From the NCBI RefSeq assembly GCF_006714895.1, contig NZ_VFME01000001.1, forward strand, positions 1,364,001 through 1,428,000: 64,000 bases of DNA. The letters run 5' to 3'. The DNA comes from Gramella sp. Hel_I_59 (GTDB lineage Bacteria; Bacteroidota; Bacteroidia; Flavobacteriales; Flavobacteriaceae). Position numbers and translations under genes: made by a program. This document shows, piece by piece, positions 10,113 through 55,537 of this stretch. Every line of letters begins with the position of its first letter. Position 1 is the first letter of the stretch. Below the pieces are notes generated by a model. It had not been told where the DNA came from. It was given only the letters and a program-made list of their open reading frames with translations, and ran no database searches.

Positions 10113-10128
10113 TTGAAGTTAAAATGAT

Positions 10129-10166
10129 AACCCACCTTGAAATATAATACAATCAGGGTGGGTTTT
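10129..10166. terminator. Terminator between dhaKL and sdaA
   Basis: A stem AACCCACCTTGA pairs with TCAGGGTGGGTT (one G-T wobble) and is followed by T's. It lies between two convergent genes and can serve dhaKL; A-richness on the other side is weak. Confidence 0.75.
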
Positions 10167-10176
10167 TCCTTTAATA

Positions 10177-30864: not shown

Positions 30865-30885
30865 GAACATTATTTTGAATAGTAG

Positions 30886-30916
30886 CAAATGTAGCGAAAA
30901 TCAAAATTATACACAA
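30886..30916 (-). promoter_or_regulatory. Promoter of the fused E1 gene
   Basis: On the minus strand, TTG is followed after 20 bp by TACATTTG, matching the Bacteroidota TTG-N17-23-TAnnTTTG pattern. The start of transcription would fall about 15-20 bp before the ATG. Confidence 0.6.
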
Positions 30917-31053
30917 TTCAAATTTTGACCACAAAACTGATAATAATTCAATTTTAACCTTTATTTATTATTTATTTCAGAAATAATAGGCGTGAGATCT
31001 AGAATTCGTTGTTAAATACGAAATTGTTCTGAGTATAACGTAAGGGAATATAT

Positions 31054-33867: not shown

Positions 33868-33943
33868 CGAAATTTAAGTTTAGTGCTGATAAAAATCAGA
33901 TCTAAATATAAACAAAGTTTGATACCTTCAGCAGTTGAAAATA

Positions 33944-34633
33944 TTAGAAATTCGGGCTTAAGTTATATTCATCATAGAATTTATCCAGAATGTCTATTAC
34001 TTCGTCTTCAGTATCTACAACCTGCACCAGATCAATATCTGCAGGACTAATATTTTGAAAACTATCAAGAAGGGTAGTTTTAATCCATTCAACAAGGCCT
34101 CCCCAGAATTCTGTTCCTACAAGAATAATCGGAAACTTATCGATCTTATGTGTTTGAATTAGAGTAATCGCCTCGAACAATTCGTCAAGCGTACCAAAAC
34201 CACCAGGCATCACAACAAAACCCTGGGAATATTTTACGAACATTACCTTTCTAACGAAGAAATAATCAAAATCAAGACTTTTATCGTTGTCTATGTATGG
34301 ATTATCATGCTGCTCAAAAGGAAGATCGATATTAAGTCCAACAGATGTACCGCCGGCAAGGTGAGCTCCTTTGTTACCAGCCTCCATAATCCCGGGACCA
34401 CCACCAGTGATCACGCCATAACCATGGTCAACAATCTTTTTCGCCACTTTTTCGGCCAGTCCGTAATATTTCATATCGGGTTTAGTTCGTGCAGATCCAA
34501 AAATAGAAACACAAGGTCCAATCTGGCTTAGTTTCTCGTATCCATTCACGAATTCACCCATTATCTTAAAAATCGCCCAGGAATCATTCGTTCTTATCTC
34601 GTTCCAGGCTTTATTGCTATTTGCTGCTTTCAT
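33944..34633 (-). CDS. LOG-family protein (TIGR00730)
   Basis: The protein is 229 residues with the two nucleotide-binding signatures of the family, GGGPGIMEAGNKGA and MPGGFGTLDE. LOG proteins are often annotated as lysine decarboxylases, but characterised members are cytokinin-nucleotide phosphoribohydrolases or AMP/nucleotide hydrolases. A cytoplasmic nucleotide 5'-monophosphate nucleosidase is the likely activity. The gene begins 9 bp after uvrA on the same strand, so they probably share a transcript. Confidence 0.87.
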   Translation of the reverse strand: MKAANSNKAWNEIRTNDSWAIFKIMGEFVNGYEKLSQIGPCVSIFGSARTKPDMKYYGLAEKVAKKIVDHGYGVITGGGPGIMEAGNKGAHLAGGTSVGLNIDLPFEQHDNPYIDNDKSLDFDYFFVRKVMFVKYSQGFVVMPGGFGTLDELFEAITLIQTHKIDKFPIILVGTEFWGGLVEWIKTTLLDSFQNISPADIDLVQVVDTEDEVIDILDKFYDEYNLSPNF

Positions 34634-34642
34634 ATGGTTGGT

Positions 34643-37474
34643 TTAACTCATTTCCTTCTTCAGGAAGCGAGCAGTGTAACTTTTAGTGTTTTTAATTATT
34701 TGTTCAGGGGTGCCGATTGCGACAACTTCACCGCCACCTTTACCGCCTTCGTATCCTATATCGATGATATGATCTGCCATTTTAATCACATCCATATTGT
34801 GTTCTATAATAAGGACAGTATTTCCTTTATCGGTTAGCGAATTTAAGACATCCATTAGAACCCTGATATCTTCGAAATGTAAACCGGTAGTTGGCTCGTC
34901 CAAGATATAAAAAGTATTCCCGGTATCTCTTTTGGAAAGTTCAGTCGCCAGTTTAATTCTCTGGGCTTCCCCTCCAGAAAGTGTTGTGGATTGTTGTCCT
35001 AGACTAATATATCCCAGTCCAACATCTTGAATCGTCTTTAGTTTTCTGTAGATTTTCGGAATGTTCTCAAAGAAAGGAGTAGCCTCATTGATGGTCATTT
35101 CCAGCACATCTGCGATAGATTTTCCCTTATATCGAATCTCCAGAGTCTCACGATTAAATCGTTTCCCCTGGCATGTTTCGCATTCTACGTAAACATCTGG
35201 CAGGAAATTCATTTCGATCACACGAAGTCCGCCACCTTTACAAGTTTCACATCTTCCGCCTTTTACATTGAAACTGAATCTTCCTGGTTTATAACCACGA
35301 ATTAGTGATTCGGGTGTTTTGGCAAAAAGATTTCGCACTTCAGAAAATACGCCGGTATATGTAGCGGGATTAGAACGCGGGGTTCGTCCAATAGGACTTT
35401 GGTTAATATCAATTACCTTATCTATATGATCCAGTCCTTTAATAGTTTTGTAAGGTTTAGGAACCTTAACTCCATTAAAATAATGAGCATTCATAATAGG
35501 GTAGAGGGTCTCATTGATCAAAGTGGATTTACCACTTCCCGAAACACCAGTTACCGCGATCATCTTTCCTAACGGAATCTTGATACTCACATTCTTCAGG
35601 TTATTTCCTGTCGCACCTTTTAATTCGATCGACTTCCCGTTACCTTTTCGTCTTTTCTGCGGAATGGCGATGGCCTTTTTACCACTCAAATAATCTGCGG
35701 TTAACGTAGAATGATTCAGCAGTTCTGAAGGAGGACCTTCGCTAATGATCTCACCACCGAATTTCCCGGCACGTGGTCCAATATCGATCACGTGATCTGC
35801 CCTTTCGATCATATCCTTGTCATGCTCCACAACGATCACAGTATTCCCGATATCTCTCAAAGATTCCAGAGAATTGATCAGCTTTTCGTTATCGCGTTGA
35901 TGCAGTCCAATACTTGGTTCATCAAGAATGTACAAAACACCTACCAGTTGAGATCCAATCTGTGTAGCAAGTCTTATACGTTGTGCTTCCCCACCTGAAA
36001 GTGATTTGGAACCACGATTTAGATTAAGGTACGTAAGACCTACATCTACCAGAAAGGCGATACGGGCGCGTATTTCTTTTACGACTTCTTCACCAATCTG
36101 TAATTGTTTTGCTGAAAGCTTCGCTTCGATATTTTCGAACCAGTCAGCAAGGTCTGAAATATCAAGATTAGCAAGTTCTGCAATATTTTTATCATTTATT
36201 CTGAAGTATAATGCTTCCTTTTTTAATCTGGTACCTTCACATTCGGGGCAATCTACCTTGTCCATGTATTCTTTTGCCCATCTGCGTAAAGAAGTAGAAT
36301 CGTTGTTCTTAAAGGTTGTTTCAATAAAGCTTGCGACACCTTCAAAATCGATCTTAAAATCCCGGGTGATTCCTAAAGCCTTGGATTCCTTGGAGAATTT
36401 TTCTTTTCCTCCATATAGAATCATATCCAATGCTTCCTTCGGAATCTTATTGATAGGATCATTCAGACTGAAATCAAAGCGTTCAGCTATAAGTTCAAGT
36501 TGAGAAAATACCCAGTTCTTTTTTTGAGGCCCGTGAGGTTCCAGACCTCCGTTTTTAATGGATTTCTTAGGCTCCGGAATAATCTTGTCAATATTCACCT
36601 GATACAAAGTACCTATCCCATTACAATTAGGACAGGCTCCTTTAGGCGAATTGAAAGAAAAACTATTAGGCTCTGGATTAGGGTAACTTATTCCAGTAGT
36701 AGGACACATAAGATTCCTGCTAAAGTATCGAACTTCACCACTATCCTGATCGAGGATCATAAGAGTATCCTCACCATGATACATAGCAGTTTTGATACTT
36801 TCATCAAGTCTTTTATCTGCTTCAGGCTTTTTTTCAATTTTCAGGCGGTCTACAACGATCTCAATATCATGAGTCTTGTATCGATCCAGCTTCATGCCTT
36901 TTTCAATATCCACCACTTTCTCATCTGCCCGAACTTTTATAAATCCCTGCTTGGCAATGGATTCGAACAATTCGCGGTAGTGACCTTTTCTACTTCTTAT
37001 TACTGGTGCAAGAATATTTACCTTTTTACCCTTAAAATCCTGCAAGATGAGTTCTTTGATCTGGGAGTCTGTATAGCTCACCATTTTCTCACCAGTCTTG
37101 TAACTGTAGGCTTCTCCGGCTCTGGCAAACAATAATCTCAAAAAATCATAGATCTCTGTGATCGTTCCTACAGTACTTCTAGGGTTTTTACTGGTTGTTT
37201 TCTGTTCTATGGCGATCACTGGAGAGAGACCTTCAATTTTATCCACATCTGGACGTTCCAGGCTTCCTAAGAACTGGCGGGCATATGCAGAAAAAGTTTC
37301 AATATATCTACGCTGTCCTTCAGCATAGATAGTATCAAATGCGAGTGAAGATTTACCAGATCCCGAGAGACCGGTAATCACAACCAGCTGTTCCCTGGGT
37401 ATGGAAACATCTATATTCTTAAGATTGTGAACTCTAGCTCCTAATACTTCGATACTGTCTTCAAATTTCGCCAT
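34643..37474 (-). CDS. uvrA: Excinuclease ABC subunit A
   Basis: UvrA recognises DNA lesions with UvrB in nucleotide excision repair. It is 943 residues with two ABC modules: Walker [15 protein letters not shown] and [14 protein letters not shown], signatures [17 protein letters not shown] and [15 protein letters not shown], and Walker [16 protein letters not shown] and [15 protein letters not shown]. The C-terminal zinc module (CETCKGGG...CETCQGKRF) is intact. In the first zinc module the CxxC is CPTT, as I recall for other Bacteroidota UvrA. I use the ATG giving MAKFEDS; the TTG four codons earlier lies almost on the -7 promoter box. Confidence 0.97.
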
Positions 37475-37491
37475 ACATTTTTTCAAGATGG

Positions 37492-37499
37492 CAAAGTTA
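37492..37499 (-). promoter_or_regulatory. -7 box TAACTTTG for uvrA
   Basis: On the minus strand this is a perfect TAnnTTTG match about 18 bp before the uvrA ATG. It makes a start further upstream unlikely. No SOS-box was recognised. Confidence 0.5.
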
Positions 37500-37859
37500 C
37501 TTATTGTAGCGCTATTAAGAAAGCCGAAGTCAAAGTACTGTTGTTAAGATACCTGTAATTTATTTGTAAGAAGGAATCAGAGCTAAACTTGTTAAGCGAA
37601 TCATAAATTAAGACTGATTTTGACTTTCCATTCGTTTAACGGAGTTAATGTCGTTAATAAAATCTTAATTGCCTACAATCTAAATTATTGATTGTCAGAG
37701 TAATATTACTATAAAAATTTTATCTCTGGATTTACAGCTACTATATTTGAGTATCCCTAAAAATGTTCCCGATCTGTTCATGATCATTTAGAAGTGTAAC
37801 TGTAACCCTACTCAGTTGCAATTGGAGCTTGTTTATATTTATTTAATGTTTGAGAGAAA
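37500..37859. other. Intergenic region between uvrA and the LuxR-type regulator
   Basis: About 360 bp without an ORF. Apart from the uvrA -7 box at its left edge, it contains an inverted repeat ACAATC-N9-GATTGT near 37675-37695, which could be an operator or chance. No TAnnTTTG box for the regulator gene was found, so its promoter remains unassigned. Confidence 0.4.
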
Positions 37860-38864
37860 ATGCAGAAGAAACAATTACTTATTGTAAGTAAGAATGAATT
37901 GCTTATCCAGGAACTTGTTCAGGGTTTGAGCACTATGTTTGATGTTTCCATAGAAGGATCCATCCATGTAGCTTATCACAGGGTTCTTAACTTATTACCA
38001 GATACGATCGTTTTTGACAAAACTTCCTATCGTAAACCTTCAGATTTTAAGAATCTGAAAAACTTTAAAGCAACCCACTTTCTAAAAAGAGCACATCTTG
38101 CAATCTATGGAAGTCCGTTGGAAATTAAGATGATGGCAAAACGATACAAAGATCTTGTAGATGAGTATCATTCTACTGCCACAGGTTTAGAGCAATTGGT
38201 TTCTAGAATCGCTCGCACTGCAGAGCAACACAAACTTAATTACTGGCATGAATGCTTTATGGGACTTTTTCACTTAATGAATCAACCCGTGCTGCTTCTA
38301 GAGAAAGACCAGATAGTTAATATGAACGATGTCGCAAGAAATACATTCAGGACCAGTGAGGAAATGCTGGATATTACAGATATAGTGAGACCGGATACTA
38401 AAAATACCATACGGGAATGCTTACGCAAATTTGCAAAAGGTAAGCATATGCATGCTACAACTGAAACTACTCTCAGGATCACCAGTCAGAAGCTTAGAAA
38501 TGCACGCATTACGCTTTCAAAACTGACTCCGAAAATTCAGGATACCTATATAATGCTAATCGATTTTATGGGTGATGAATATAGCCTTCGTGGGAACGTG
38601 GGTTCTACGGCTACGGAAGTTGAAAATTCTCTGTCGATGGCAAAATGTATGGAAGAGGAGAATTTCACGAGAAGAGAAAAAGAGATCATTACACTTTTAT
38701 GTAAGGGCTATAAGACTAAGGAGATTTCAGAAGCACTATTTATAAGTCCGAAAACAATAGAGAAGCACAGATCGAGTATTATAAAAAGAACAAATTCAGA
38801 TACGATCCTTGAAAGCATTATTTACGCTATCAATCACAACCTGGTTGAAATGCCTAAATCTTAA
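37860..38864 (+). CDS. PAS/LuxR-type transcriptional regulator with receiver-like N-terminus
   Basis: The protein is 334 residues in three parts. Residues 1-120 resemble a receiver domain: an Asp (Asp53, in TIVFDK) sits at the phosphorylation position, but the acidic pocket after the first strand is Ser-Lys-Asn instead of Asp-Asp, so phosphorylation is doubtful. Residues about 130-240 look like a PAS domain (VLLLEKDQIVNMNDVARN). The C-terminus is a clear LuxR/GerE helix-turn-helix, FTRREKEIITLLCKGYKTKEISEAL...TIEKHRSSI. No histidine kinase is adjacent. It lies directly upstream of the three modular lipoproteins and a palindrome, so it is the candidate local regulator. Confidence 0.8.
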   Translation: MQKKQLLIVSKNELLIQELVQGLSTMFDVSIEGSIHVAYHRVLNLLPDTIVFDKTSYRKPSDFKNLKNFKATHFLKRAHLAIYGSPLEIKMMAKRYKDLVDEYHSTATGLEQLVSRIARTAEQHKLNYWHECFMGLFHLMNQPVLLLEKDQIVNMNDVARNTFRTSEEMLDITDIVRPDTKNTIRECLRKFAKGKHMHATTETTLRITSQKLRNARITLSKLTPKIQDTYIMLIDFMGDEYSLRGNVGSTATEVENSLSMAKCMEEENFTRREKEIITLLCKGYKTKEISEALFISPKTIEKHRSSIIKRTNSDTILESIIYAINHNLVEMPKS

Positions 38865-38896
38865 AGCATTGTTAAACAGGTATTTTAAGATCTATA

Positions 38897-38914
38897 ATAG
38901 GGGATTTCCCCTAT
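38897..38914. promoter_or_regulatory. 18-bp perfect palindrome, candidate operator
   Basis: ATAGGGGA-TT-TCCCCTAT has two 8-bp perfect arms and is GC-rich against an AT-rich background. It begins 32 bp after the stop of the LuxR-type regulator and about 340 bp before the first lipoprotein ATG. The size fits a site for a dimeric LuxR-type protein. It could also be a weak hairpin, but no T-run follows. Confidence 0.4.
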
Positions 38915-39255
38915 AAAATTGAGAGATACAATGACATATATTTACCTAGATTTCTAAAAGAGGTTGCCCCCATCTTCACAAAATCTTTCCTACACTAAGA
39001 TCGCCCCCGATCCTTACTTAATAAATTGAAAAGAATCATCTCATTTGAGATAACAAATATTATTTATTAACCATTCGAAAATTTATTAACCAAAACTCTG
39101 TAATTATGAAGTAGATAGTCACTCCCACCTGGTTCCATCTGAACCGGAAAACTCGTAAGATTAGATCTTAAGAACCTTTATCCACGAACATATATCGTTC
39201 CCTGGACCAGACATTTATTAACCATTCTAAAAATTTTAACCAAAACTTTTTAATC
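38915..39255. other. Long leader region with duplicated translation-start segment and two-codon ORF
   Basis: The stretch 39062-39111 (ATTTATTAACCATTC ... TTAACCAAAACT ... ATGAAG) recurs at 39213-39261 with few changes, the second copy leading into the first lipoprotein gene. The first copy ends in ATG AAG TAG, a two-codon ORF. Further upstream, GCCCCCATC and GCCCCCGATC recur about 40 bp apart (38966 and 39003), and GGTTC-N5-GAACC sits near 39131. No CDS is present. Confidence 0.5.
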
Positions 39256-40725
39256 ATGAAAAAATTTAATTTATACCTCGCTATTTTCTCGATGTGTGCT
39301 TTGGTGCTCACCGGGTGTAGCAAAGATGAAAACGAAAAAATAAATCCAGGCGAAGATTCAGCATTTGTTGAGATCACTTTTGGAGCATCACTTGACGAAC
39401 TCGTAAACCGGGCCGTACAGGTTAATAAGGATCATTTTAACCAAGTTCCAACCTGTTCAGATGCTACACCTACTGTAGCAAGAATCGAATTTTCCTATGG
39501 AGGGCAGAATTATTCGACAGATGTAGATATTTTGTTTGATGGAACTGCATACTTTACAGATTACTCTGAAGCACTAAAGATCCCAGTAGCAAATAATGGT
39601 ACGACTACCGTTACTTTAACTGGTTTTATGGTGTATGATGGAGATCCTACTACAGATGGTGATATTATCTGGATCGCACCTAAATCTTCTGAAGAAGGTC
39701 AGTTTGATGGGTATGTAGATAATCCTCTACCATTTGATTTTGATGTTAGAGATGGTACAAAACCATACATTGATATTGAAGTTTTGTGTTATGATAGACG
39801 TATGGTAAATGAATATGGATATGTATTCTTTGAACTTGAAAATACTGAACTAATCAACTTCTGTATTTTTGGAAACTTCTGTCCACCATCTGGTAGACAC
39901 TACCTTGCTTCTTATAGCGTAAATGTATGGACAGTAGATGAAAACGGTAATAATCTTGTAGATCTTTATGATGGTGGAATAGAAAATATGATCGTTGAAG
40001 AAGACGGACAGTATTCTGCAGACCCATTATGTATCGTATTACCAGATAGATTAGACGAGACCGATAGATATCGTATTGAAATTAGAATTCAAGATGGTCC
40101 TGATTATGACGCTAATGAAGGTGAATTAATTAGAACTGCAATTCTTACAGATCTAGAGATTAGAACATTTTTTGATGGCGATGATAACCTGGAATACTAC
40201 CACTTCTTTGAAGGTTGTGGAGAGTCTGATGATCCACAAATCTTTGATGATCCTCGTGACGATACCATGGTTTATAAGACTTGTGCTAAAGAATTAAATG
40301 ATTCTGGTGTTATAGCCTTGGCTTCTGTTGCAAAAACAGGAAATAAATTTGATGTAACCGTACTTGCTACTAATACTACTGCAGGAATGAGTCATCTACA
40401 GCATATTCATGGATTTGCTCCTGTACAGGGAGTTCAACAGGATGCAACCTGTCCAACTATGGACGCTGCTGGTGCTGACGGAATTCTAACCCTAGCAGAA
40501 GGCGTTCCTTTCTATGGACCTGTCCAACTAGGTCTGTCTGTTTCTGGAGATGAATTCCCGGTTGCCGATGCAAATGGAAATTATATCTACGAAAGAGTTT
40601 TCACACTTTCAGCGGAAGAAATGGAAAATCTTACATCTCTTGATAAGAATGTGATTGTAATTCATGGTCTTGATGGCAATGCTACTTTACCAGTAGCATG
40701 TGGAGAACTTACTTTAGTTCAATAG
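39256..40725 (+). CDS. Modular surface lipoprotein 1 (shared N-domain, CHRD-like C-module)
   Basis: The protein is 489 residues with a lipoprotein signal ending at LVLTGC (Cys21). Residues about 37-325 form a domain shared with the next two genes, with blocks NKDHFNQVPTCSDA, FSYGGQNY, DGYVDNPLPFDF, DGTKPYIDIEVLCYD, RRMVNEYGYVFF, GRHYLASYSV and SADPLCIVLP. I do not recognise this domain. The C-module (about 338-489) has HLQHIHGF and VIVIHGLDG and resembles CHRD or SOD-like beta domains, which is inference. The Asp/Glu-rich composition suggests calcium binding and an outer-membrane surface location. It is the first of three tandem paralogues and ends in its own terminator. Confidence 0.65.
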   Translation: MKKFNLYLAIFSMCALVLTGCSKDENEKINPGEDSAFVEITFGASLDELVNRAVQVNKDHFNQVPTCSDATPTVARIEFSYGGQNYSTDVDILFDGTAYFTDYSEALKIPVANNGTTTVTLTGFMVYDGDPTTDGDIIWIAPKSSEEGQFDGYVDNPLPFDFDVRDGTKPYIDIEVLCYDRRMVNEYGYVFFELENTELINFCIFGNFCPPSGRHYLASYSVNVWTVDENGNNLVDLYDGGIENMIVEEDGQYSADPLCIVLPDRLDETDRYRIEIRIQDGPDYDANEGELIRTAILTDLEIRTFFDGDDNLEYYHFFEGCGESDDPQIFDDPRDDTMVYKTCAKELNDSGVIALASVAKTGNKFDVTVLATNTTAGMSHLQHIHGFAPVQGVQQDATCPTMDAAGADGILTLAEGVPFYGPVQLGLSVSGDEFPVADANGNYIYERVFTLSAEEMENLTSLDKNVIVIHGLDGNATLPVACGELTLVQ

Positions 40726-40730
40726 TATCA

Positions 40731-40762
40731 AAGGGACACTTATTCAAAGTGTCCCTTTTTTT
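40731..40762 (+). terminator. Terminator between modular lipoproteins 1 and 2
   Basis: The arms AGGGACACTT/AAGTGTCCCT pair perfectly over a short loop and run into seven T's, 26 bp before the next ATG. It may act as an attenuator in the array. Confidence 0.88.
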
Positions 40763-40786
40763 AAATCAACTTAAAACACAACATAA

Positions 40787-42514
40787 ATGAAACATTTTAA
40801 AATTTGCTTGGGATTATTAGCAATGTTAGCGTTGCTGGTAATGTCATGTAGCCAGGAAGATCAATCTTCCTCTGAAACGGGCACAGATGTTCAGTCTGTA
40901 GACTTACAATTTGGAGCATTATTAAATGACCTGGCAAACCGGGCCATGAGCGTAAATAAGGATCATTTTAACCAAATTCCTGATTGTTCAGATGCACTTC
41001 CAGCGGTAGCTAGTATAGCTTTTAGCTATGGCGGAAATGACTATGATGTAGATGTGGACATTCTGAATGACGGATCAGATTTTTATACAGCATATTCAGA
41101 AGATCTAAAAATACCAGTAGCTAATAATAGCTCTGTAACCGTGACCTTAAATGGTTTTCGTGTTTATGACGGTGATCCAGATGATGATGGTGAGCTAATT
41201 TGGGTAGCTCCAATTGAAGCTACACCCGGACAGTTTGATGGATATGTAGATAACCCTTTGCCTTTCACTTTTGAAGTTCGTGACGGTACGAAACCTTATA
41301 TCGACATTGAAGTTTTATGTTTCGATCGCAGAATGGTCAACGAATATGGTTATCCTTTCTTTGATCTGGTACCTGGAAAACTGTATCCTCTGTGCTTTTT
41401 TGCAAACTATTGCCCTAGCGTAAATGGTAGACATTATGTAGGTAACTATAGCGTAGATCTTTATTATGATAATGGTGAAGAGCGTATTAAACTTTATTCT
41501 ACAGCACAAACGCCAACAACTGGTGAAACTAATGGAGAATACTTTGCAGATCCTCTTTGTTTAGTAGTACCAGAATCTCCTTTTGAAGATCCTACTACTG
41601 AATATCTTTTCTATACAGTTACTCCTTTAGACTGGGCAGATTCTTATGGTGATATAGACAATACACCACTAGCAGAAGTTGGTCTAAACTGGAATGATGT
41701 TGACGAATTATTAAGCGCCGATGGCGAATCTGTAGACTATATACACCTATTTATAGGTTGCGAGCCACCAATAGGAGATTGTCCTGGTGTACCAACAGAA
41801 GGAGATATGGATGGAGATTGCGTGCCAGATGTTGATGACGAATGTCCAGAAGTTCCAGGTACTGCTGAAAATTTTGGTTGTCCAGATGATGAATGTCCTG
41901 GAGAGGATTTAGATGGTGATGGATTGTTCGGAGACTGTGATCAGTGTCCTAACGATGCTGGAACAGCTGATAATTTTGGTTGCCCAGTAGATGATTGTAC
42001 CACTGATACTGATAATGATGGTGTAGTAGATTGTGAAGATGAATGTCCAGATACTCAGGGTCCAGCAGATAATGATGGTTGTCCAGAAGATAATGGAGGT
42101 GATACTTGTGAAACAGCATTTATGTTTGGTGATACACAGATCAATGACATTTCAAATGGTAATCGTTGGGGATGGGCCGAAAATTTCGATACCACTATCG
42201 ATGGCAACAGTAAAACTTTCAATTTCTGGGCTGGAGCTGGTCAAAATGATACTAGCAAAGGAGAACTTGTAGGTACTGTCACAATTACTGTCGATGGAGA
42301 CGAGGTGAATTTTGATATCGATCTTGAGTCAGGAGTTAGTTTGGATGATCTTCACGTTTACTTAAGCGAAGATAACCCTGGAAATACAGCAAAAAGTCCA
42401 GGTCAGTATAACAGAAATGATGAGGTAAGTACAGGTAATTTAGATTTCACTCTAGACCGTACCAGTGACGATTCCAGTTTTTGGATAATCGTTCACGGAG
42501 TAGCTTGTTATTAG
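40787..42514 (+). CDS. Modular surface lipoprotein 2 (shared N-domain, TSP3 repeats, beta C-module)
   Basis: The protein is 575 residues with a lipoprotein signal ending at LLVMSC (Cys21). Residues about 37-325 repeat the unrecognised shared domain (NKDHFNQIPDCSDA, DGTKPYIDIEVLCFD, RRMVNEYGY, GRHYVGNYSVDLY, ADPLCLVVP). Residues about 331-435 are thrombospondin type-3-like calcium repeats (DMDGDCVPDVDDECP, DLDGDGLFGDCDQCP, DTDNDGVVDCEDECP). The last 135 residues, beginning ETAFMFGDTQIND, are a beta domain with SFWIIVHGVACY at the end; its family is unknown to me. It is probably an exported, calcium-stiffened surface protein. Confidence 0.65.
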   Translation: MKHFKICLGLLAMLALLVMSCSQEDQSSSETGTDVQSVDLQFGALLNDLANRAMSVNKDHFNQIPDCSDALPAVASIAFSYGGNDYDVDVDILNDGSDFYTAYSEDLKIPVANNSSVTVTLNGFRVYDGDPDDDGELIWVAPIEATPGQFDGYVDNPLPFTFEVRDGTKPYIDIEVLCFDRRMVNEYGYPFFDLVPGKLYPLCFFANYCPSVNGRHYVGNYSVDLYYDNGEERIKLYSTAQTPTTGETNGEYFADPLCLVVPESPFEDPTTEYLFYTVTPLDWADSYGDIDNTPLAEVGLNWNDVDELLSADGESVDYIHLFIGCEPPIGDCPGVPTEGDMDGDCVPDVDDECPEVPGTAENFGCPDDECPGEDLDGDGLFGDCDQCPNDAGTADNFGCPVDDCTTDTDNDGVVDCEDECPDTQGPADNDGCPEDNGGDTCETAFMFGDTQINDISNGNRWGWAENFDTTIDGNSKTFNFWAGAGQNDTSKGELVGTVTITVDGDEVNFDIDLESGVSLDDLHVYLSEDNPGNTAKSPGQYNRNDEVSTGNLDFTLDRTSDDSSFWIIVHGVACY

Positions 42515-42525
42515 ATAAAAAATTG

Positions 42526-42569
42526 TTCCATCTTGGAGAAACTTTAATTAACTCCAGGATGGAATATTT
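42526..42569 (+). terminator. Hairpin between modular lipoproteins 2 and 3
   Basis: Thirteen-base arms TTCCATCTTGGAG and CTCCAGGATGGAA pair with one wobble over a 13-base loop, followed by only a short T-rich stretch. It is a weak terminator or processing/attenuation structure. Confidence 0.65.
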
Positions 42570-42596
42570 TGAATAAAATATTAACCAAATATATAA

Positions 42597-44219
42597 ATGA
42601 TGAAATTTATTAATAAATATATAGCATTGGTAGCCGTGTTCGCTATGATGTTTACATCCTGTAGTAAGGATGAAAGTTCTGAGGGACTAGATGACGCAGA
42701 ACTTCAGGCAGTGGAAATTACGTTTGGAGCTTCGCTTAATGATCTGGTAGATCGAGCGGCTCAAAGCATAAGCAAGGATCATTTCAATACAATTCCTGAT
42801 TGTTCTGATGCTGAACCAGCTGTAGCAAGAATAGATTTTAGCTACGGTGGAAACAGTTACCAGACAGATGTATCAATTCTAAAGGATGCAAATGGATATT
42901 TTACCGACTATTCCGAAGATCTTAAAATATTAGTTCCTAACAATGGACAGGTGACAATTAGCCTGGACGGTTTTATGGTCTATGATGGTGATCCGGATAC
43001 TACCGGAAACTTGATCTGGGTAGCTCCAAAAGAGTCTGATGGTGATTTCGATGGTTATGTAGACCAGGCACTGCCTTTCGATTTTACTGTTGAAGATGGT
43101 ACTAAACCATACATTGATGTAGAAGTTCTCTGTTTTGATCGCCGTATGGTAAACGAATATGGATACGTATTTTTTGATATTCTTCCAGAAGTTATATATC
43201 CATTATGTCTATTTGTAAACTACTGTGACGAAGATGGCAGACATTATGTAGCTGATTATAGTATTGATCTGTACTTTGGAGAGGATGCGTCTGGTATTCA
43301 ACTTTATGATCATACCGAAAGTTCAGCTATGGCTTCAACTGGAGATTACGGAGATGGTCAGTATTACGCAGATCCACTTTGTCTTGTAGTTCCAGGTCCA
43401 CCTGCTAATCTTGGTGACAACGAACCTTACTTATTTATGGTGCTGTACCCGCAAGATTGGGATGGTACTGGTGACATTGATAACTCACCAATACAGGGAA
43501 TAACTTTATCATGGAACATGGTTAAGTCATTACTCAATGGAGATGGAACAACAAATGAATATTATCACCTGCTTATTGGTGAATGTGAAGGTGCCTTGAC
43601 CGGAGATGGTACTGGTGGAAATGGTGGTGGAACAGGAGACACAGATCTTGACAACGATGGTGTTGACAATGATGTGGATCAATGTCCTAATACACCAGCC
43701 GGGGCTACTGTAAATGCAGTTGGATGTCCAGATTCAGACGGAGATGGAGTTTATGACAATGATGATCTATGTGAAGAAACTCCAACTGGTACTACAGTAG
43801 ATGAAGACGGTTGTCCCGTAGATGTAGGAGGAACTGATTGTGGAACTGCAACCTGGGGACGTGATGATCTCGTAGAAGGTTTTGGTCTTGTAATCGTTTC
43901 AGATTTTGCTTTTCCTGTAAGGATTTTTGCTGAAGCCTCTACTTTAGATGGTTTAAATGAAAACCTGGAAATTGGCTCAATTCAGTTGAGTACAGTTGAA
44001 GGAGGAATTGGAGTAGCTATTAATTTAGAAGACGGAGACTATGAAGTAACGGGATACACAATTAGTGCAAGCTTAAATGCAGATGGTAGTGACCCGATAG
44101 TTGAATCTGGTTCTTCAATTGCGGCGGGCGGTTCGGCGAACGAGACACTTACAATTCCATCATTCGATGATTTATACTTGAAAATCGAATTCGATATCTG
44201 TGAAGTTTCTGTGAATTAA
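42597..44219 (+). CDS. Modular surface lipoprotein 3 (shared N-domain, TSP3 repeats, different C-module)
   Basis: The protein is 540 residues, with a lipoprotein signal ending at AMMFTSC (Cys22). The shared domain spans about residues 38-326 (SKDHFNTIPDCSDA, DGYVDQALPFDF, DGTKPYIDVEVLCFD, RRMVNEYGYVFF). A Gly-rich linker (TGDGTGGNGGGTGD) leads to two TSP3-like repeats with DLDNDGVDNDVDQCP and DSDGDGVYDNDDLCE. The C-module (about 415-540) is beta-rich and differs from those of genes 1 and 2. The leader contains TTAACCAAAT, matching the leader element of gene 1. ATGATG offers two starts, the first used here. Confidence 0.65.
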   Translation: MMKFINKYIALVAVFAMMFTSCSKDESSEGLDDAELQAVEITFGASLNDLVDRAAQSISKDHFNTIPDCSDAEPAVARIDFSYGGNSYQTDVSILKDANGYFTDYSEDLKILVPNNGQVTISLDGFMVYDGDPDTTGNLIWVAPKESDGDFDGYVDQALPFDFTVEDGTKPYIDVEVLCFDRRMVNEYGYVFFDILPEVIYPLCLFVNYCDEDGRHYVADYSIDLYFGEDASGIQLYDHTESSAMASTGDYGDGQYYADPLCLVVPGPPANLGDNEPYLFMVLYPQDWDGTGDIDNSPIQGITLSWNMVKSLLNGDGTTNEYYHLLIGECEGALTGDGTGGNGGGTGDTDLDNDGVDNDVDQCPNTPAGATVNAVGCPDSDGDGVYDNDDLCEETPTGTTVDEDGCPVDVGGTDCGTATWGRDDLVEGFGLVIVSDFAFPVRIFAEASTLDGLNENLEIGSIQLSTVEGGIGVAINLEDGDYEVTGYTISASLNADGSDPIVESGSSIAAGGSANETLTIPSFDDLYLKIEFDICEVSVN

Positions 44220-44277: not shown

Positions 44278-44304
44278 ACCCACTCCTGTGGAGTGTGTGT
44301 AAGG

Positions 44305-44335
44305 CTGTCTGGAGAAATCCAGACAGTTTTTTTTT
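44305..44335 (+). terminator. Second, orphan rho-independent terminator
   Basis: A 9-bp perfect stem CTGTCTGGA/TCCAGACAG with a GAAA tetraloop is followed by nine T's. It is stronger than the terminator 28 bp upstream, and no ORF lies between them. Confidence 0.85.
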
Positions 44336-44632: not shown

Positions 44633-45688
44633 ATGACAAAATTAAAGAGTTTACTCCTGCTATCAGCTTTTGCAATGATAAGCTGTAGCGAGGATTCAAC
44701 TTCAGAACTTGCAACTGCTGAAAATGAAACCCAGATCACTTCAACAGAATCAAAAGATGATATTACCGAGATTGCATTTCCAGATTCTAAAGGAACTGCT
44801 ACTGATGTTTATTATACAGGTATTAAAATGGCTGTAGAGAATGTCAACGGTAATTATATTTTTGAAGGGGATATTATGATTCCCAAGGGTAAAGCTTCTA
44901 AAAGCCCTGTAAATTTAGTTTTAGAAAAAGGAGATGAGGTATCTCAAGCTAAAAGTGTTGGTAGAACTTCAGCTTACTGGGAAGATAATACAGTGTACTA
45001 CGAAATTGATTCCAGGCTAGGCAACCAGGATCGCGTATTCGATGCTATTAGCCATTGGGAAGCAAACACTAATCTCGAATTCGTGAAAAGATCTGGTCAG
45101 TCAGACTATATTTATTTCACTCCGGGATCAGGTTGTTCTTCTTATGTTGGAAAAGTTGGCGGGAAGCAGAATATTACTCTAGCCGATGCTTGTTCCACTG
45201 GTAACACCATTCATGAAATTGGACATGCCATTGGCCTTTGGCACGAACAAAGCCGAGTGGATAGAGATAAGCATATTACTATCAACTTTGAAAATATTCA
45301 AACAGGTAGAGAATACAATTTCCAGACTTACCAGGAAAATAACTTTGATGGTGATGAGTTTACAACCAATTTAGATTTTGGTTCTATCATGATGTATAGC
45401 CCATACGCATTCTCTAAAAATGGTCAACCTACGATCACTAAGACTGATGGTAACACCTATAGTGTTCAGAGATCTCAGCTGTCCAACGGTGATGTTACAG
45501 GGATTAATGCTATGTACCCTTCATCTAATGGTGGGGAAGAGAAACCAACTCAGAACTATATAAACGGAGAATACTACACTATCGAAGGTCTTACAGTTTT
45601 AAGATATTACGATCAATGGTACTATAATATGGGCTGGTACGGTTGGAAACGTGTTGAGTTGATAGAAGGTGTCTGGTATTTTGCTTAA
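44633..45688 (+). CDS. Astacin-family (M12A) zinc metalloprotease lipoprotein 1
   Basis: The protein is 351 residues with a lipoprotein signal ending at AFAMISC (Cys18). A pro-region to about residue 110 contains FEGDI (77-81), the Asp-switch motif that keeps astacins latent by binding the zinc. The catalytic domain has the complete zinc motif HEIGHAIGLWH (194-204) with EQSRVDRD, and the Met-turn SIMMY (251-255). Cysteines CSS and ACS flank the motif. A Tyr/Trp-rich tail of about 43 residues (NGEYYTIEGLTVLRYYDQW) follows a short linker. The close paralogue directly follows, separated by a terminator-like hairpin. It presumably acts at the cell surface. Confidence 0.9.
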   Translation: MTKLKSLLLLSAFAMISCSEDSTSELATAENETQITSTESKDDITEIAFPDSKGTATDVYYTGIKMAVENVNGNYIFEGDIMIPKGKASKSPVNLVLEKGDEVSQAKSVGRTSAYWEDNTVYYEIDSRLGNQDRVFDAISHWEANTNLEFVKRSGQSDYIYFTPGSGCSSYVGKVGGKQNITLADACSTGNTIHEIGHAIGLWHEQSRVDRDKHITINFENIQTGREYNFQTYQENNFDGDEFTTNLDFGSIMMYSPYAFSKNGQPTITKTDGNTYSVQRSQLSNGDVTGINAMYPSSNGGEEKPTQNYINGEYYTIEGLTVLRYYDQWYYNMGWYGWKRVELIEGVWYFA

Positions 45689-45832: not shown

Positions 45833-46915
45833 ATGAAAAACCTAAAATTTATTTTAGCTGTTCCGTTATTGGCATTTGTCGCCTGTAACGAAGAGAATTA
45901 TGATGATTCTAATACTGGAATGAGCGAAACCAGTTCCTTCCAGAACGATGAGTTTACAGAAATTGCATTTCCGAACGAATCTGGAACTGTTTCTGATATT
46001 TATTTTGCGGGAAGAAAACTTCCAGTAGAAGAATTAAATGGCAAGTATGTATACCAGGGAGATATTTTTCTTTCAGAAGATAATATTTCTAAAACTCCAT
46101 TAGATCTGGTTTTAAATGCTGATGAAGATGTACTAGTCACTGATAAAAGTGTTGGACGTACAAAATTCTTCTGGCCTGAGAATGTAGTCTATTATAACAT
46201 AGATCCTGCATTACCTAACCAACAGAGAGTTTCAGACGCAATTGCGCACTGGGAAAGCAATACTGCTGTAAAATTCGTGCAACGATCTTCAGAAGCTAAC
46301 TATGTTTATTTCACGCCCGGAGGAGGATGTTCTTCTTACGTGGGTATGGTAGGAGGTAGACAACCAATTACTCTTGCAGATGGTTGTTCAACTGGAAACA
46401 CAATACATGAGATTGGTCATGCCGTTGGATTATGGCATGAACAGAGTAGAGCTGACAGGGATCAAACCATTACGGTAAATTTTAATAATATCCTTTCAGG
46501 AAGAGAACATAATTTTTATACGTACGTAGAGGCCGGTTATGATGGCGCAGATTATACTGCTGGTCTGGATCTTGGATCAATTATGATGTATAGTCCTTAT
46601 TCATTTTCTGCCAATGGACAGCCTACGATCACACGAAAAGATGGATCCCTATATTCTGTTCAACGTTCTGTACTTTCCAGTGGTGATCAGGAAGGTATTG
46701 AAGTGATGTATCCAGGAGAAGAGGAGCCGGCACCTACAGAGCCAGAACCAACCGAACCTGAACCAACGAATCCAGAGCCAGAATATATTAATGGGGAATG
46801 GTACGTTATTGAAGGTGTTATGGTTTTAAGAAACAATGATACATGGTATGTTGAAAAAGGTAAAAACCTAAGGGAAGTTGAGCTAATTAACGGAAGATGG
46901 AGATTCGTTAAATAA
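45833..46915 (+). CDS. Astacin-family (M12A) zinc metalloprotease lipoprotein 2
   Basis: The protein is 360 residues with a lipoprotein signal ending at LLAFVAC (Cys18). The pro-region carries YQGDI (74-78), the equivalent of the aspartate switch with Tyr for Phe. The catalytic motif is HEIGHAVGLWH (192-202) followed by EQSRADRD, with Met-turn SIMMY. It differs from its neighbour mainly by a repetitive Pro-Glu-Thr linker (about 296-317) before the same kind of C-terminal tail (NGEWYVIEGVMVLRNNDTW). It is a tandem duplicate, and the linker suggests the tail is a separate, flexible binding or anchoring module. Confidence 0.9.
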   Translation: MKNLKFILAVPLLAFVACNEENYDDSNTGMSETSSFQNDEFTEIAFPNESGTVSDIYFAGRKLPVEELNGKYVYQGDIFLSEDNISKTPLDLVLNADEDVLVTDKSVGRTKFFWPENVVYYNIDPALPNQQRVSDAIAHWESNTAVKFVQRSSEANYVYFTPGGGCSSYVGMVGGRQPITLADGCSTGNTIHEIGHAVGLWHEQSRADRDQTITVNFNNILSGREHNFYTYVEAGYDGADYTAGLDLGSIMMYSPYSFSANGQPTITRKDGSLYSVQRSVLSSGDQEGIEVMYPGEEEPAPTEPEPTEPEPTNPEPEYINGEWYVIEGVMVLRNNDTWYVEKGKNLREVELINGRWRFVK

Positions 46916-46970: not shown

Positions 46971-47559
46971 CAGAACTTATTTCTTCCAGTTTTTGATCTG
47001 AAAAGCGCTGTACATCCTTGAAAAATTGCCTAAACTCATTTTCAAATTCATCATAATGTAATTTTAGTTCATCTGTAGCCTGATCCATACCAGATTTTAG
47101 CTTCGTTCTTTTATTCATACCATTCAAAACACTTTGAATTCCATCTATAGAGGCATAACTCAAAAGCCAGTTTTGTTCAATCATATATGGGAGAAAATTC
47201 TTGACATTTGGAGGTAGAACCTCGTAGTTAAGCTTCAGTAGCTCATAGAACTGTATGGTATATTCCTCCAATGGTATATCACAATAGTCTTTCCAGTTAG
47301 CTGCCAGGAAATGATCATAAAAAATGTCTACTATGATACCGCTATAATGCCGGTATCTTTCAGACAAACGATGACTACTTTCTTTAAAAACCGGATGAGT
47401 ATCGGTATAAAAGTCGATTGCACGATGAAGAATTATACCTTTCTGAATTTGAGAGCCATATTTGCGATATTTTTTCCCTTTGATGGAATCTGCCATAAAA
47501 TTGCCGATTTTAACGAGGTCCTCATCACCAGATAGATAAATATGTGCCAGAAAGTTCAT
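46963..47559 (-). CDS. acpH: Acyl carrier protein phosphodiesterase
   Basis: This 198-residue cytoplasmic enzyme of the AcpH family removes phosphopantetheine from holo-ACP. Family blocks are visible: NFLAHIYLSGDEDLVKIGNFMADSIKG split around the start, ILHRAIDFYTDTHP, HYSGIIVDIFYDHFLAANW, and MIEQNWLLSYAS. The His/Asp residues in these blocks belong to an HD-like metal site. It is a single gene, convergent with the astacin pair. Confidence 0.88.
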   Translation of the reverse strand: MNFLAHIYLSGDEDLVKIGNFMADSIKGKKYRKYGSQIQKGIILHRAIDFYTDTHPVFKESSHRLSERYRHYSGIIVDIFYDHFLAANWKDYCDIPLEEYTIQFYELLKLNYEVLPPNVKNFLPYMIEQNWLLSYASIDGIQSVLNGMNKRTKLKSGMDQATDELKLHYDEFENEFRQFFKDVQRFSDQKLEEISSEK

Positions 47560-47606
47560 GCGGGAATATATGAATTAAACAGGGCCAGGGTTAATATTTG
47601 TTAAGT

Positions 47607-47639
47607 TTTGGAAAGTACGGGGTGACACAATTATATTTG
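47607..47639 (+). promoter_or_regulatory. Promoter of glmM
   Basis: TTTG is followed after 21 bp by TATATTTG, a complete Bacteroidota promoter pattern, about 45 bp before the ATG. Confidence 0.6.
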
Positions 47640-47684
47640 TTAAAATTTCTTACAGGTCTTATCAAGATCTATAAATAACTAATA

Positions 47685-49070
47685 ATGACATTAATAAAAT
47701 CAATTTCGGGGATAAGAGGAACTATTGGCGGGAAAACCGGTAATAATTTAACTCCCTTAGATACAGTGAAATTTGCCGCAGCTTATGGCACGTGGTTAAA
47801 AAATAACTCTACTAACAAGAATCTAAAGGTTGCGGTAGGAAGAGATGCCAGAATATCTGGAAAAATGATCCAGGAACTAACGATGAATACCCTAACTGGT
47901 CTGGGAATCGATGTGATCGATCTAGGCTTGTCTACGACTCCAACGGTAGAGGTCGCGGTTCCCTTGGAAAATGCTGATGGTGGAATCATACTTACTGCCA
48001 GCCATAATCCTAAACAATGGAACGCTTTAAAACTATTGAATAGTAAAGGAGAATTTCTTGACGGAGAAGCCGGAGCCCTGATTCTTGAAATAGCAGAAAG
48101 TGAAAATTTTGATTTTGCTGAAGTGGATGATCTGGGGAAAATCACCGTGATCGATGATTATATCGACAGACATATTGAAGAGGTCCTGAAGCTTAAACTT
48201 GTTGATGCTGATAAAGTTTCTTCCGCGAAATTTAAAGTAGCTGTGGATGCAGTAAATTCCACTGGAGGAATTGCTATTCCAGCACTGCTGAAGAGAATGG
48301 GTGTAGAGGTGATTGAATTATACTGTGAACCAAACGGACATTTCCCTCATAATCCAGAACCTTTAAAAGAGCATTTAACCGATATCTGTGACTTAATGAA
48401 AAAGGAGAAGGCAGATCTTGGGATCGTAGTAGATCCAGATGTAGATCGTCTTGCTTTTATAGACGAAAACGGTGAAATGTTTGGTGAGGAATATACATTG
48501 GTCGCTTGTGCAGATTATGTATTATCTAAAACTCCCGGGAACACTGTTAGTAACCTTAGCTCGTCCAGAGCATTAAGAGATATTACAGAAAAACATAATG
48601 GAGAGTATAATGCTAGTGCCGTAGGTGAAGTCAACGTGGTTCAGCTTATGAAGGATTCAAATGCGATCATTGGTGGTGAAGGTAATGGTGGTATCATTTA
48701 TCCGGAAGCACATTATGGTAGAGATAGCCTCGTGGGTACGGCCTTGTTTCTTACATATCTGGCAGAAAAGAAAGAGTCGGTTTCTTCAATAAGAGCAAGT
48801 TATCCTTCTTATTATATGAGTAAGAATAAAATTCAGCTGACTCCAGATCTGGATGTTGATGGTGTTTTGAAGGCGGTTGAAAAAAGACACGCTTCAGAAG
48901 AAATTTCTACAGTAGACGGAGTAAAGATCGATTTTCCAGAAAATTGGGTTCACTTAAGAAAATCCAATACAGAGCCAATCATCAGGATCTATACTGAAGC
49001 AAAATCTCAACAGGAAGCAGATGAGCTGGCACAGAAAATGATATCTGAAATTGAGCAGATCATAGCCTAA
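47685..49070 (+). CDS. glmM: Phosphoglucosamine mutase (or related phosphohexomutase)
   Basis: The protein is 461 residues of the alpha-D-phosphohexomutase family. The N-terminal block SISGIRGTIGG, the catalytic serine loop TASHNPKQWNA, the metal loop DPDVDRLAF, and the sugar-binding GGEGNGGIIYPE are all visible. GlmM interconverts glucosamine 6- and 1-phosphate on the route to UDP-GlcNAc, cell wall and lipid A. A phosphomannomutase or phosphoglucomutase is the alternative. Its stop overlaps the convergent acyltransferase gene by 4 bp. Confidence 0.85.
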   Translation: MTLIKSISGIRGTIGGKTGNNLTPLDTVKFAAAYGTWLKNNSTNKNLKVAVGRDARISGKMIQELTMNTLTGLGIDVIDLGLSTTPTVEVAVPLENADGGIILTASHNPKQWNALKLLNSKGEFLDGEAGALILEIAESENFDFAEVDDLGKITVIDDYIDRHIEEVLKLKLVDADKVSSAKFKVAVDAVNSTGGIAIPALLKRMGVEVIELYCEPNGHFPHNPEPLKEHLTDICDLMKKEKADLGIVVDPDVDRLAFIDENGEMFGEEYTLVACADYVLSKTPGNTVSNLSSSRALRDITEKHNGEYNASAVGEVNVVQLMKDSNAIIGGEGNGGIIYPEAHYGRDSLVGTALFLTYLAEKKESVSSIRASYPSYYMSKNKIQLTPDLDVDGVLKAVEKRHASEEISTVDGVKIDFPENWVHLRKSNTEPIIRIYTEAKSQQEADELAQKMISEIEQIIA

Positions 49071-49972
49071 CTTACTCTGGTAGCTCCTTCTGGAACAGGT
49101 TCATTTCTATGTTTCCAGCGTTTATGCGTCCAGAGATAGTACTCCGGTTTCTCACGAATTTGCTTTTCGAGAAGTTCAAAAAACTTTTGAGTAATAAAAT
49201 GCTCCGGTTCTTCCGGGGCATTTTCAGTTATAGGAACCAGCGTAGCTTCATAAAATCCTCTGCCGGTTTTTTCCACATGTAGGTAGATTACATTAAGATC
49301 CAGACCACGAGCCAGTTTTTCAGAACCTTCAAAAACAGGAACAGAAATACCCATAAATTTCATCCATAGATTGGAACGCTGAAGTCTTGGCGATTGGTCG
49401 GCGATCATAGCGTAATTACCCCGTAATCCTTCCCGCTCATTTTGAATAATTCTCTTGGTCGCTTTGTGAGTGTTTACAAGCTCTCCACCAAGCTTACTAC
49501 GTATCTTGCGAACCATATCATCAAAATACCTGTTCCTTATCTTCTTGTAGATTCCGAAGGATTTATATTTGAGTCCGTAGAGTTGTAGCGCGATAATCCA
49601 TTCATAACTAGCATAATGTGCGCACATCAGGACGATACTCTTGTTTCTGCTTTCAATATCTCTTAAAACTTCAAGATTAGTGAATTTGAAGCGCTTTTGA
49701 ATTTCCTCGTTACTAATAGAGATGCTTTTGATCATTTCCAGAAACATGTCACACATATGCTTGTAGAAAACTTTTTCTATACGTATCAATTCTTCGGAAG
49801 GCTTATCAGGAAACACCATTCTTAGATTCTTTTGAACAGTACTTCGGCGATAGCCAATGACTCTAAAAACCAGGAAATATATAAAGTCTGAGAATATGTA
49901 GAAAATACGAAACGGAAGAATGGATATAAGCCAGAGTAGGGGGTAAACAAGCCAGAAAACTAATCCTTGCAT
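49067..49972 (-). CDS. LpxL/HtrB-like lipid A acyltransferase
   Basis: The protein is 301 residues with an N-terminal membrane helix (LVFWLVYPLLWLISILPFRIFYIF) and the HX4(D/E) catalytic motif as HYASYE, in MCAHYASYEW. Further family blocks are IADQSPR and FMGISVPVFEGSEKLA. The enzyme adds a secondary acyl chain to the lipid A precursor at the inner membrane. It is divergent from the rhomboid gene, with overlapping promoter boxes. Confidence 0.88.
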   Translation of the reverse strand: MQGLVFWLVYPLLWLISILPFRIFYIFSDFIYFLVFRVIGYRRSTVQKNLRMVFPDKPSEELIRIEKVFYKHMCDMFLEMIKSISISNEEIQKRFKFTNLEVLRDIESRNKSIVLMCAHYASYEWIIALQLYGLKYKSFGIYKKIRNRYFDDMVRKIRSKLGGELVNTHKATKRIIQNEREGLRGNYAMIADQSPRLQRSNLWMKFMGISVPVFEGSEKLARGLDLNVIYLHVEKTGRGFYEATLVPITENAPEEPEHFITQKFFELLEKQIREKPEYYLWTHKRWKHRNEPVPEGATRVS

Positions 49973-49986
49973 AAAAAAACTTTCCG

Positions 49987-50005
49987 CAAATATATGGTAT
50001 ATTTG
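49987..50005. promoter_or_regulatory. Back-to-back divergent -7 boxes forming a palindrome
   Basis: CAAATATA-TGG-TATATTTG holds a perfect TATATTTG on each strand, pointing away from each other. One would serve the acyltransferase gene (leader about 10 bp) and the other the rhomboid gene (leader about 15 bp). Confidence 0.5.
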
Positions 50006-50024
50006 AAATTAAACTTTAGTAAAA

Positions 50025-50678
50025 ATGGGAGAATTGAGCCTGGTCACGCTGGTGATCATAGCGGCAAATGCATTAATTTCTTTTAAAGGTTTTAGCGATG
50101 AGACCTTCTTCAACAAGTACAAGTTCAGTACTTCAGATATTCAAAGAGGTTCTAAATTTCAAATATTCACATCGGGATTCCTCCATGTAGATACAAGCCA
50201 CCTTTTTGTAAATATGCTAACGCTCTATTTCTTTGCAAATGTGGTTATCTGGCAGTTAGGCTCTGTAGCTTTTCTTATTATCTATCTTGGGAGTCTGTTA
50301 CTGGGGAATTTATTGTCTTACTATTTCCATAAAAATGATCCGTATTATACGGCCGTAGGTGCCAGTGGTGCGGTCATGGGAATTTTATATTCTGCCATAC
50401 TATTACAACCAGATATGACGCTTGGTTTGTTCTTTATCATACCTGTTCCCGCTTACATCTTCGGAATAGGTTATTTACTTTATACTATTTATGGAATGAA
50501 GCGCAGAACAGATAATATTGGTCATGATGCGCACTTTGGCGGTGCTACCGGTGGATATATTCTAACGATGATTCTGGCACCCTGGGTGTTGGAAAGTCAC
50601 TTGCTAATGGTTATTTTACTAGCTGTGCCTATCGTAATATTGTTCTTTCTTCAAAGAACCGGGTATCTATCTAAGTAA
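50025..50678 (+). CDS. Rhomboid-family intramembrane serine protease
   Basis: The protein is 217 residues with six hydrophobic segments. The catalytic serine is in GASGAVMG and the partner histidine in GHDAHFGGATGG, the two rhomboid signatures. An early SGFLHVDTSHLFVNMLTLYFF block is also typical. It cuts single-pass membrane proteins in the inner membrane; its substrate is unknown. It stops 6 bp before the convergent thioredoxin lipoprotein gene. Confidence 0.92.
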   Translation: MGELSLVTLVIIAANALISFKGFSDETFFNKYKFSTSDIQRGSKFQIFTSGFLHVDTSHLFVNMLTLYFFANVVIWQLGSVAFLIIYLGSLLLGNLLSYYFHKNDPYYTAVGASGAVMGILYSAILLQPDMTLGLFFIIPVPAYIFGIGYLLYTIYGMKRRTDNIGHDAHFGGATGGYILTMILAPWVLESHLLMVILLAVPIVILFFLQRTGYLSK

Positions 50679-50684
50679 GTAGAA

Positions 50685-51806: not shown

Positions 51807-51941
51807 TTTTTATGTCTATTTCTGCAAAAATAATGAACTCATGCTTCATTCTGATGGCGTTCTTATAAATAAATGTTAATTTCAGGCCGTTGCTCTGTCC
51901 TGGCTACTTTTCCATTTAATTTTACCTTAAATTATCAAGTT

Positions 51942-55481: not shown

Positions 55482-55537
55482 ACATGAATTTTTGATTCCA
55501 AGGACCAAATTACAAAAAATAATGACCACAGTTTTCT

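Follow-up and report, generated by a model that had tools for sequence, protein, structure and literature searches.

A row of lipoproteins with a shared N-terminal region and an exchangeable C-terminal module in Gramella sp. Hel_I_59

Why should one end of a lipoprotein be held constant while the other end differs from gene to gene and from strain to strain? The question is raised by three adjoining genes in a 64,000-nucleotide stretch (the window) of Gramella sp. Hel_I_59 (NZ_VFME01000001.1, positions 1,364,001 to 1,428,000). All three lie on the forward strand. Gene 1 (39256..40725) encodes a lipoprotein of 489 residues with the lipobox LTGC, an N-terminal region (N-region, about residues 37-325) and a CHRD-like C-terminal module; gene 2 (40787..42514) encodes one of 575 residues, in which the N-region is followed by TSP3-like repeats and a beta-sandwich module of type T0; gene 3 (42597..44219) encodes one of 540 residues with N-region, TSP3-like repeats and an exchangeable C-terminal module. 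It is probable that these genes are local alleles of a lineage-restricted lipoprotein family with a constant base, a spacer and an exchangeable recognition tip, kept diverse by selection. Two replacements in relatives carry this reading. Between genomes G012 and G016 an unrelated-looking version has taken the place of the last gene's tip, and its borders, directly behind the spacer and directly before the stop codon, are sharp; in the close sibling G008 the whole row, together with the astacin proteases behind it, has been replaced between conserved flanks.

Exchange of the C-terminal module

The degree to which the tip follows the base differs between the three gene types. Two identities, one for the N-region and one for the last 112-140 residues, were compared over 1500 random gene 1 pairs, all 1128 gene 2 pairs and all 1378 gene 3 pairs, and correlated among 60 of 107 gene 1 proteins taken at random, 48 gene 2 proteins and 53 gene 3 proteins. 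For gene 1 the two rise together (Spearman 0.58, Mantel p 0.001), the median module identity climbing from 32 to 80% as N-region identity climbs. The correlation is 0.25 (p 0.002) for gene 2 and -0.01 (p 0.57) for gene 3, where the median module identity is 22-24% up to an N-region identity of 90% and 62% above it. Of the pairs with an N-region identity of at least 60%, those with a module identity below 30% number 561 of 648 for gene 3, 52 of 524 for gene 2 and 0 of 243 for gene 1. With shuffled gene 3 modules the median is 12% and the 95th percentile 22%; the 22% between gene 3 modules is low without being zero, which agrees with several types being remote homologues.

Some N-regions that are 97-100% identical carry modules of only 20-26% identity (P0064 against five of the window's group, P0096/P0099, P0176/P0179 and P0178/P0182), and the reverse is also found: N-regions of 39% with modules of 78% in G011/G022, and of 40% with 83% in G014/P0071. 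A larger set of 303 proteins yields 107 proteins of the gene 1 type, 69 of the gene 2 type and 71 of the gene 3 type, leaving aside 56 proteins that are bare, of other kinds or outside the length and motif filters. By single linkage, which makes types and clusters approximate, a threshold of 40% identity divides the 71 gene 3 proteins among 21 module types, and 5 of the 13 types with at least two members span more than one N-region cluster. A single N-region cluster, comprising 59 proteins of the gene 3 type, includes 17 of the module types. There are also close pairs without such a difference: G005 and G014 (among 32 of 253 pairs) have N-regions of 81-92% and all three modules at 92%.

At the level of DNA the borders of the exchange become visible. 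Between G012 and G016 identity is 80-84% across all four genes up to the spacer end of the last gene; in that gene the N-region stands at 83.5% and the last 115 codons, which encode the module, at 47.2%. The BLAST alignment stops at 9413 and restarts at 9745 of L075. Downstream, the stretch 9769-10200 has 73.6%, falling as low as 55% near 9950, and identity is 84.7% from 10200 on. That the borders fall at the spacer and immediately ahead of the stop codon suggests that imported DNA entered by homologous recombination; the DNA of N-region and spacer would supply the homology upstream of the tip, and the conserved DNA behind the gene would supply it downstream.

The replacement in G008 is larger. 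The segment 39321..47032 of the window has no high-identity match there, and the flanks match at 94.2% (30000-39320) and 92.3% (47033-56000). The match ends at 39320, two bases past the codon for the lipobox Cys in gene 1, and picks up again at 47033, within the ACP phosphodiesterase gene. In its place G008 has a divergent row of six lipoprotein genes and one astacin gene, with the window matched only in pieces of 66-74%. Among the proteins UvrA is 99% identical, the LuxR-type regulator 98% and the ACP phosphodiesterase 91%, with 41-45% for the N-regions and 66% for the astacin.

The window's own gene 3 shows a milder form of the pattern. Against G019 (the window's genome being G000) the coding parts are 92-98% identical except for the spacer (81.9%) and the module (73.7%) of gene 3, its N-region standing at 96.0%, the next downstream spacer at 98.1% and astacin 1 at 96.5%; identity also drops, though less, in the two spacers that separate the three genes (85%) and near 37500 (83%). 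Since both modules belong to one type, the difference is that of a diverged allele and does not amount to a change of type. With G007, a more distant genome, the contrast is less clear (gene 3 N-region 86.0%, module 71.5%, next spacer 74.1%). Gene 2 compared with G011 has a third-position identity of 35-68% over residues 1-400 and of 68-93% over residues 401-575, with an amino-acid identity of 96% in the module and of only 40-60% in the first 160 residues, as expected if the module moved between species. In its own genome the window's gene 3 module matches only itself in a search for silent cassettes that would miss strongly diverged ones; orthologues are found in 2 of 38 other genomes. Diversification by module exchange, as proposed in a preliminary description of this DNA, is thus strongly borne out for gene 3 and, less strongly and within one module type, borne out for gene 2; it finds no support in gene 1, where the module follows the N-region.

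What may keep the tips diverse

In the favoured explanation the N-region, with two beta-sandwiches and six conserved cysteines, would be the constant membrane-proximal base, the Asp-rich TSP3-like stretch would act as a spacer in genes 2 and 3, and the C-terminal beta-module would be the recognition tip that contacts a partner. The slowly changing CHRD-like tip of gene 1 and the semi-conserved tip of gene 2 may have a more constant job, leaving gene 3 as the diversity position. Tip diversity would be maintained by diversifying selection on contacts with phage, predators, competitors or changing ligands. The contenders for the partner that drives it are, in order of belief, recognition of phage or competitors, substrate capture beside the astacins, and self-recognition. 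A wider version is tentative and rather doubtful: a genus-wide recognition-type locus of marine flavobacteria, with a role like that of serotype or kin-recognition loci, in which strains and species would swap the gene 3 tip and occasionally the entire row, astacins included, the type deciding which phages, predators and neighbours are met.

Substrate capture in a proteolytic locus, where astacins would cut proteins or peptides, the tips would bind different substrates and diversity would track diet, is unlikely as the explanation. The astacin genes behind the row in 24 of 24 loci speak for it, as does the divergent astacin (66%) that comes with the row of G008; however, a scan of seven window proteins, running from the LuxR-type regulator to the ACP phosphodiesterase, turned up no SusC- or SusD-like member, and a change of tip at an N-region identity of 97-100% looks faster than a change of diet would need. 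It is distinctly improbable that the tips serve self/non-self recognition, with homotypic binding between neighbouring cells setting partner choice in a TraA-like manner. A polymorphic tip on a constant base, many types and whole-locus replacement would all fit, and a precedent exists in TraA of myxobacteria, a polymorphic cell-surface receptor with many natural types (PMC6372800), but nothing shows homotypic binding, the look for a partner having been confined to the neighbouring genes, and the TraB-model match of gene 2 (residues 370-433) falls in the TSP3-like part. The likeness to TraA lies in the idea of a polymorphic surface receptor with many types and is one of description: TraA comes from one locus and its part in recognition is proven, whereas the window has a row of paralogues with proteases and a putative role.

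Very little credence is left for an account without exchange, in which the gene 3 C-terminal module evolves very fast under relaxed or positive selection and the rest of the protein is conserved. Remote homology does connect several gene 3 module types, module identity falls to 62% at N-region identities of 92-98% within the window's own group, and the module dip between G000 and G019 fits equally. It is already contradicted by module types that recur on distant N-regions (N-region 36-40% with module 45-83%), with 5 of 13 multi-member types on more than one N-region cluster; besides, the third-position identity of the gene 2 module between G000 and G011 rises and does not fall, and in G008 the whole row is replaced. 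Least credible of all is that the proteins are fimbrillins of the Mfa1/FimA kind, polymerising into fibres. Those fimbrillins of Bacteroidota are lipoproteins that are exported, contain beta-sandwich domains and exist in allelic types. The Mfa1/FimA model (NF038041) reaches 21.8 bits against a curated 130 with the signal peptide included, and once the signal peptide is removed no family matches at E ≤ 1 in 3 of 3 proteins, which sets the window family apart from the fimbrillins by sequence membership.

Exchange of the recognition part on constant surface proteins is an already known phenomenon. In the vls system of Borrelia (PMC11499132) a surface lipoprotein is diversified by recombination, with silent cassettes adjoining one expression site; here, in contrast, exchange is seen between strains and species, and a second copy of the gene 3 module was not found in the genome. 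Among the titles and abstract openings listed, which did not include every hit, literature on Gramella/Christiangramia and Bacteroidota surface lipoproteins, DUF4458, module exchange, phage receptors and hypervariability gave no report of the family or the locus. Surface diversity of marine flavobacteria is usually framed by polysaccharide-utilisation systems and capsules. The row presents a protein locus at one chromosomal place whose outer end acts like a swappable cassette, and its definite genes and sharp borders offer a handle on the forces behind the turnover of marine bacterial surfaces.

Base, spacer and tips

The three reading frames lie where the preliminary description had placed them, and the N-region alignment behind it is sound, with the motifs KDHFN, CSDA, DGTKPYID, RRMVNEYGY, GRHY and ADPLC; in gene 3 VE precedes DGTKPYID, and KDHFN lacks a preceding N. 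In a protein search P0002 finds the other two in its own genome at E 1.9e-112 and 4.0e-98, far beyond chance, and profile searches of that genome find three copies of the N-region and no fourth. The region extends over about 290 residues behind the lipoprotein signal. Among 128 members, thinned to less than 85% identity from 161 proteins, seven cysteines are conserved: the lipid Cys and five others in 128 of 128 and a sixth in 127, with one gap. In gene 1 they are C21, C67, C178, C203, C209, C259 and C321.

The first half of the N-region shares its fold with the N-terminal domain of BT_0210 (PDB 4ecn). This domain is taken here to be Pfam DUF4458 (PF14660). BT_0210 is titled a leucine-rich repeat protein; the window family instead adds a second sandwich, TSP3-like repeats and beta-modules. 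The window's three proteins have no DUF4458 match at E ≤ 1 and do not reach the gathering cut-off of 22.4 bits. Weak matches occur in relatives, in 1 of 12 at E 0.029 and in 3 of 50 with a best E of 0.048, the best score being 18.0 bits in the distant relative L101. A phylum census for DUF4458 gave 0 of 118 genomes and carries no information, because 0 of 14 controls were detected. No solved relative came up by sequence, whether the query was a profile (of the N-region, of 101 relatives or of 50 relatives) or one distant single protein (best E 0.32, 0.29, 0.5 and 0.69). The earlier statement that the region belongs to no published family accordingly holds for named functions and curated sequence models, and has to be qualified by the recognisable fold of the first half and the weak DUF4458 matches in some members. 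The source label DUF4382 for P0140 finds no support in Pfam at E ≤ 1. Many different beta-modules are mounted on this constant base of two domains, one half of which corresponds to a solved fold.

All three proteins have a lipobox, the Cys of which opens the sequence CSKDE in genes 1 and 3 and CSQED in gene 2. The pattern C-x-K-(D/E)2 is present at this place in 199 of 241 lipobox-bearing proteins, of 253 members, and is reported as the optimal lipoprotein export signal in Capnocytophaga (PMC5080379). With this motif in most members the proteins are probably outside the cell, and on such sequence grounds the lipoproteins are probably displayed on its surface. The surface scaffold of the preliminary description gains support in its first word; a scaffolding role would be a further step.

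The module of gene 1 (40267..40722) is matched by stand-alone lipoproteins in relatives and has no Pfam match at E ≤ 1. For CHRD (PF07452, cut-off 24.1 bits) 2 of 50 members match at E ≤ 1, and four stand-alone relatives score 17.7-21.9 bits, so that 'CHRD-like' describes a resemblance for which even the best stand-alone relative (21.9 bits) stays under the cut-off. The stand-alone lipoproteins L092, L093, L095 and L096, of 182-223 residues, consist of this module alone and have the motifs HPQHIHG, VLHG and PVACG in common. For Cu/Zn superoxide dismutase the gene 1 module has a weak match to the SodC model (16.2 bits against 230), and a stand-alone relative has weak PDB matches (best E 0.15).

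The TSP3-like Asp-rich repeats are visible in genes 2 and 3, as had been described, and in gene 2 comprise three 87-nucleotide repeats (41804..42091). In the window they stay below the cut-off of TSP_3 (PF02412, 25 bits), with 15.6 in gene 2 and 19.0 in gene 3; relatives pass it, for example L043 at 204.3 bits. A 493-residue frame elsewhere in the genome (G000:C1:121329-121754) has only the TSP3-like repeats in common with gene 2. L043, L045, L051 and L054 are N-region proteins of 832-1079 residues at other loci with a similar end module; in L043 and L045, the two scanned, Pfam detects TSP3 repeats together with PPC domains (78 and 53 bits).

The T0 module of gene 2 (42095..42511, about residues 437-575) is modelled as a beta-sandwich with a predicted local distance difference test (pLDDT) of 87.9 and a predicted template modelling score (pTM) of 0.82. 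The large proteins L109 and L110 (1888 and 1600 residues) have a module related to this tip; their C-terminal tail is presumably type IX-like. The exchangeable module of gene 3 (43821..44216) is of type T2. By hhalign, T0 is linked to T1, the commonest gene 3 type, with a probability of 87.6% and T1 to T2 with 89.0%, whereas T0 against T2 directly gives only 24.1%, with reversed controls at 1.5 and 2.7%; gene 3 type T4 has no link (0.4 and 0.7%). The modules of genes 2 and 3 are probably remote homologues via this intermediate type. The CHRD-like module has no profile link to either of them (1.9% and 0.2%, like the reversed controls).

The locus, its spread and neighbouring signals

Upstream of the row lies a gene for a LuxR-type regulator (37860..38864, forward strand; Pfam GerE, 51 bits), and downstream lie two genes for astacin-type (M12A) metalloproteases on the same strand (44633..45688 and 45833..46915; Pfam Astacin, 165.9 and 152.3 bits). 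Twenty-four LuxR-bearing loci were compared: 22 of the genus, window included, one of Salegentibacter echinorum (L010) and one of a neighbour genus (L046). The duplicates L009 and L012 were omitted, and G010 and G023 (73 and 67% complete) yielded no such locus. The order LuxR, lipoproteins, astacin is found in 24 of 24, with UvrA seen in 23. A gene with N-region and CHRD-like module is present in 21 of 24, one with N-region and T0 in 23 and a bare N-region gene in 11; the gene with the variable module is the last before the astacin in all 24. The types of genes 1 and 2 are therefore positional, and gene 3 is the variable position. The LuxR-type regulator has 43-57% identity in 20 of the 23 other loci and 98% in the remaining 3, and the adjoining UvrA, where seen in the loci with the lower values, has 81-92%. 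The LuxR gene changes unusually fast, yet was not replaced along with the row in G008.

The family is lineage-restricted, with thin scatter beyond. Searches with the three proteins gave 308, 332 and 278 relatives at E ≤ 0.001, of which the best 120 each were used; among the matches listed, named relatives are mostly Christiangramia/Gramella, with Gillisia, Salegentibacter, Salinimicrobium, Zunongwangia and Autumnicola. P0001 has matches in 28 of 59 genomes, its own included, and in 24 of 24 genomes of its genus. The N-region is found in 23 of these 24, because G010 matches via the CHRD-like module only. At E ≤ 1e-6, 12 of 397 sampled genomes and 8 of 237 genera match across the taxonomic family, and across the phylum 3 of 395 genomes. 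Two distant members have other ends: Laminin_G_3 in L099 and a weak DUF4842 in L101. Five N-region matches (G006, G008, G012, G016 and G030) each hold one in-frame stop; those in G006, G008 and G030 are short bare-N copies, where the natural end may fall within the match.

The preliminary description had given each gene its own leader and hairpin. T-tailed, terminator-like hairpins lie 3' of gene 1 (40730..40758, 12 pairs) and of gene 3 (44301..44330, 13 pairs), both on the forward strand, in a scan with 7 T-tailed sites for the region, where shuffled sequence would give 4.8; gene 2 has none, and an inverted repeat seen by eye behind it is without a T-run. Own promoters of the three genes are not supported, because the Bacteroidota-type -7 consensus pattern occurs within coding sequence only and not upstream of any of them. 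The leader of gene 1 contains a direct repeat with 82% identity between copy 1 (39062..39094, forward strand) and copy 2 (39213-39245), which lies directly 5' of the gene. The stretch of copy 1 (39062-39111) precedes a two-codon frame only; this copy is possibly the relic of a lost or deleted gene of the array.

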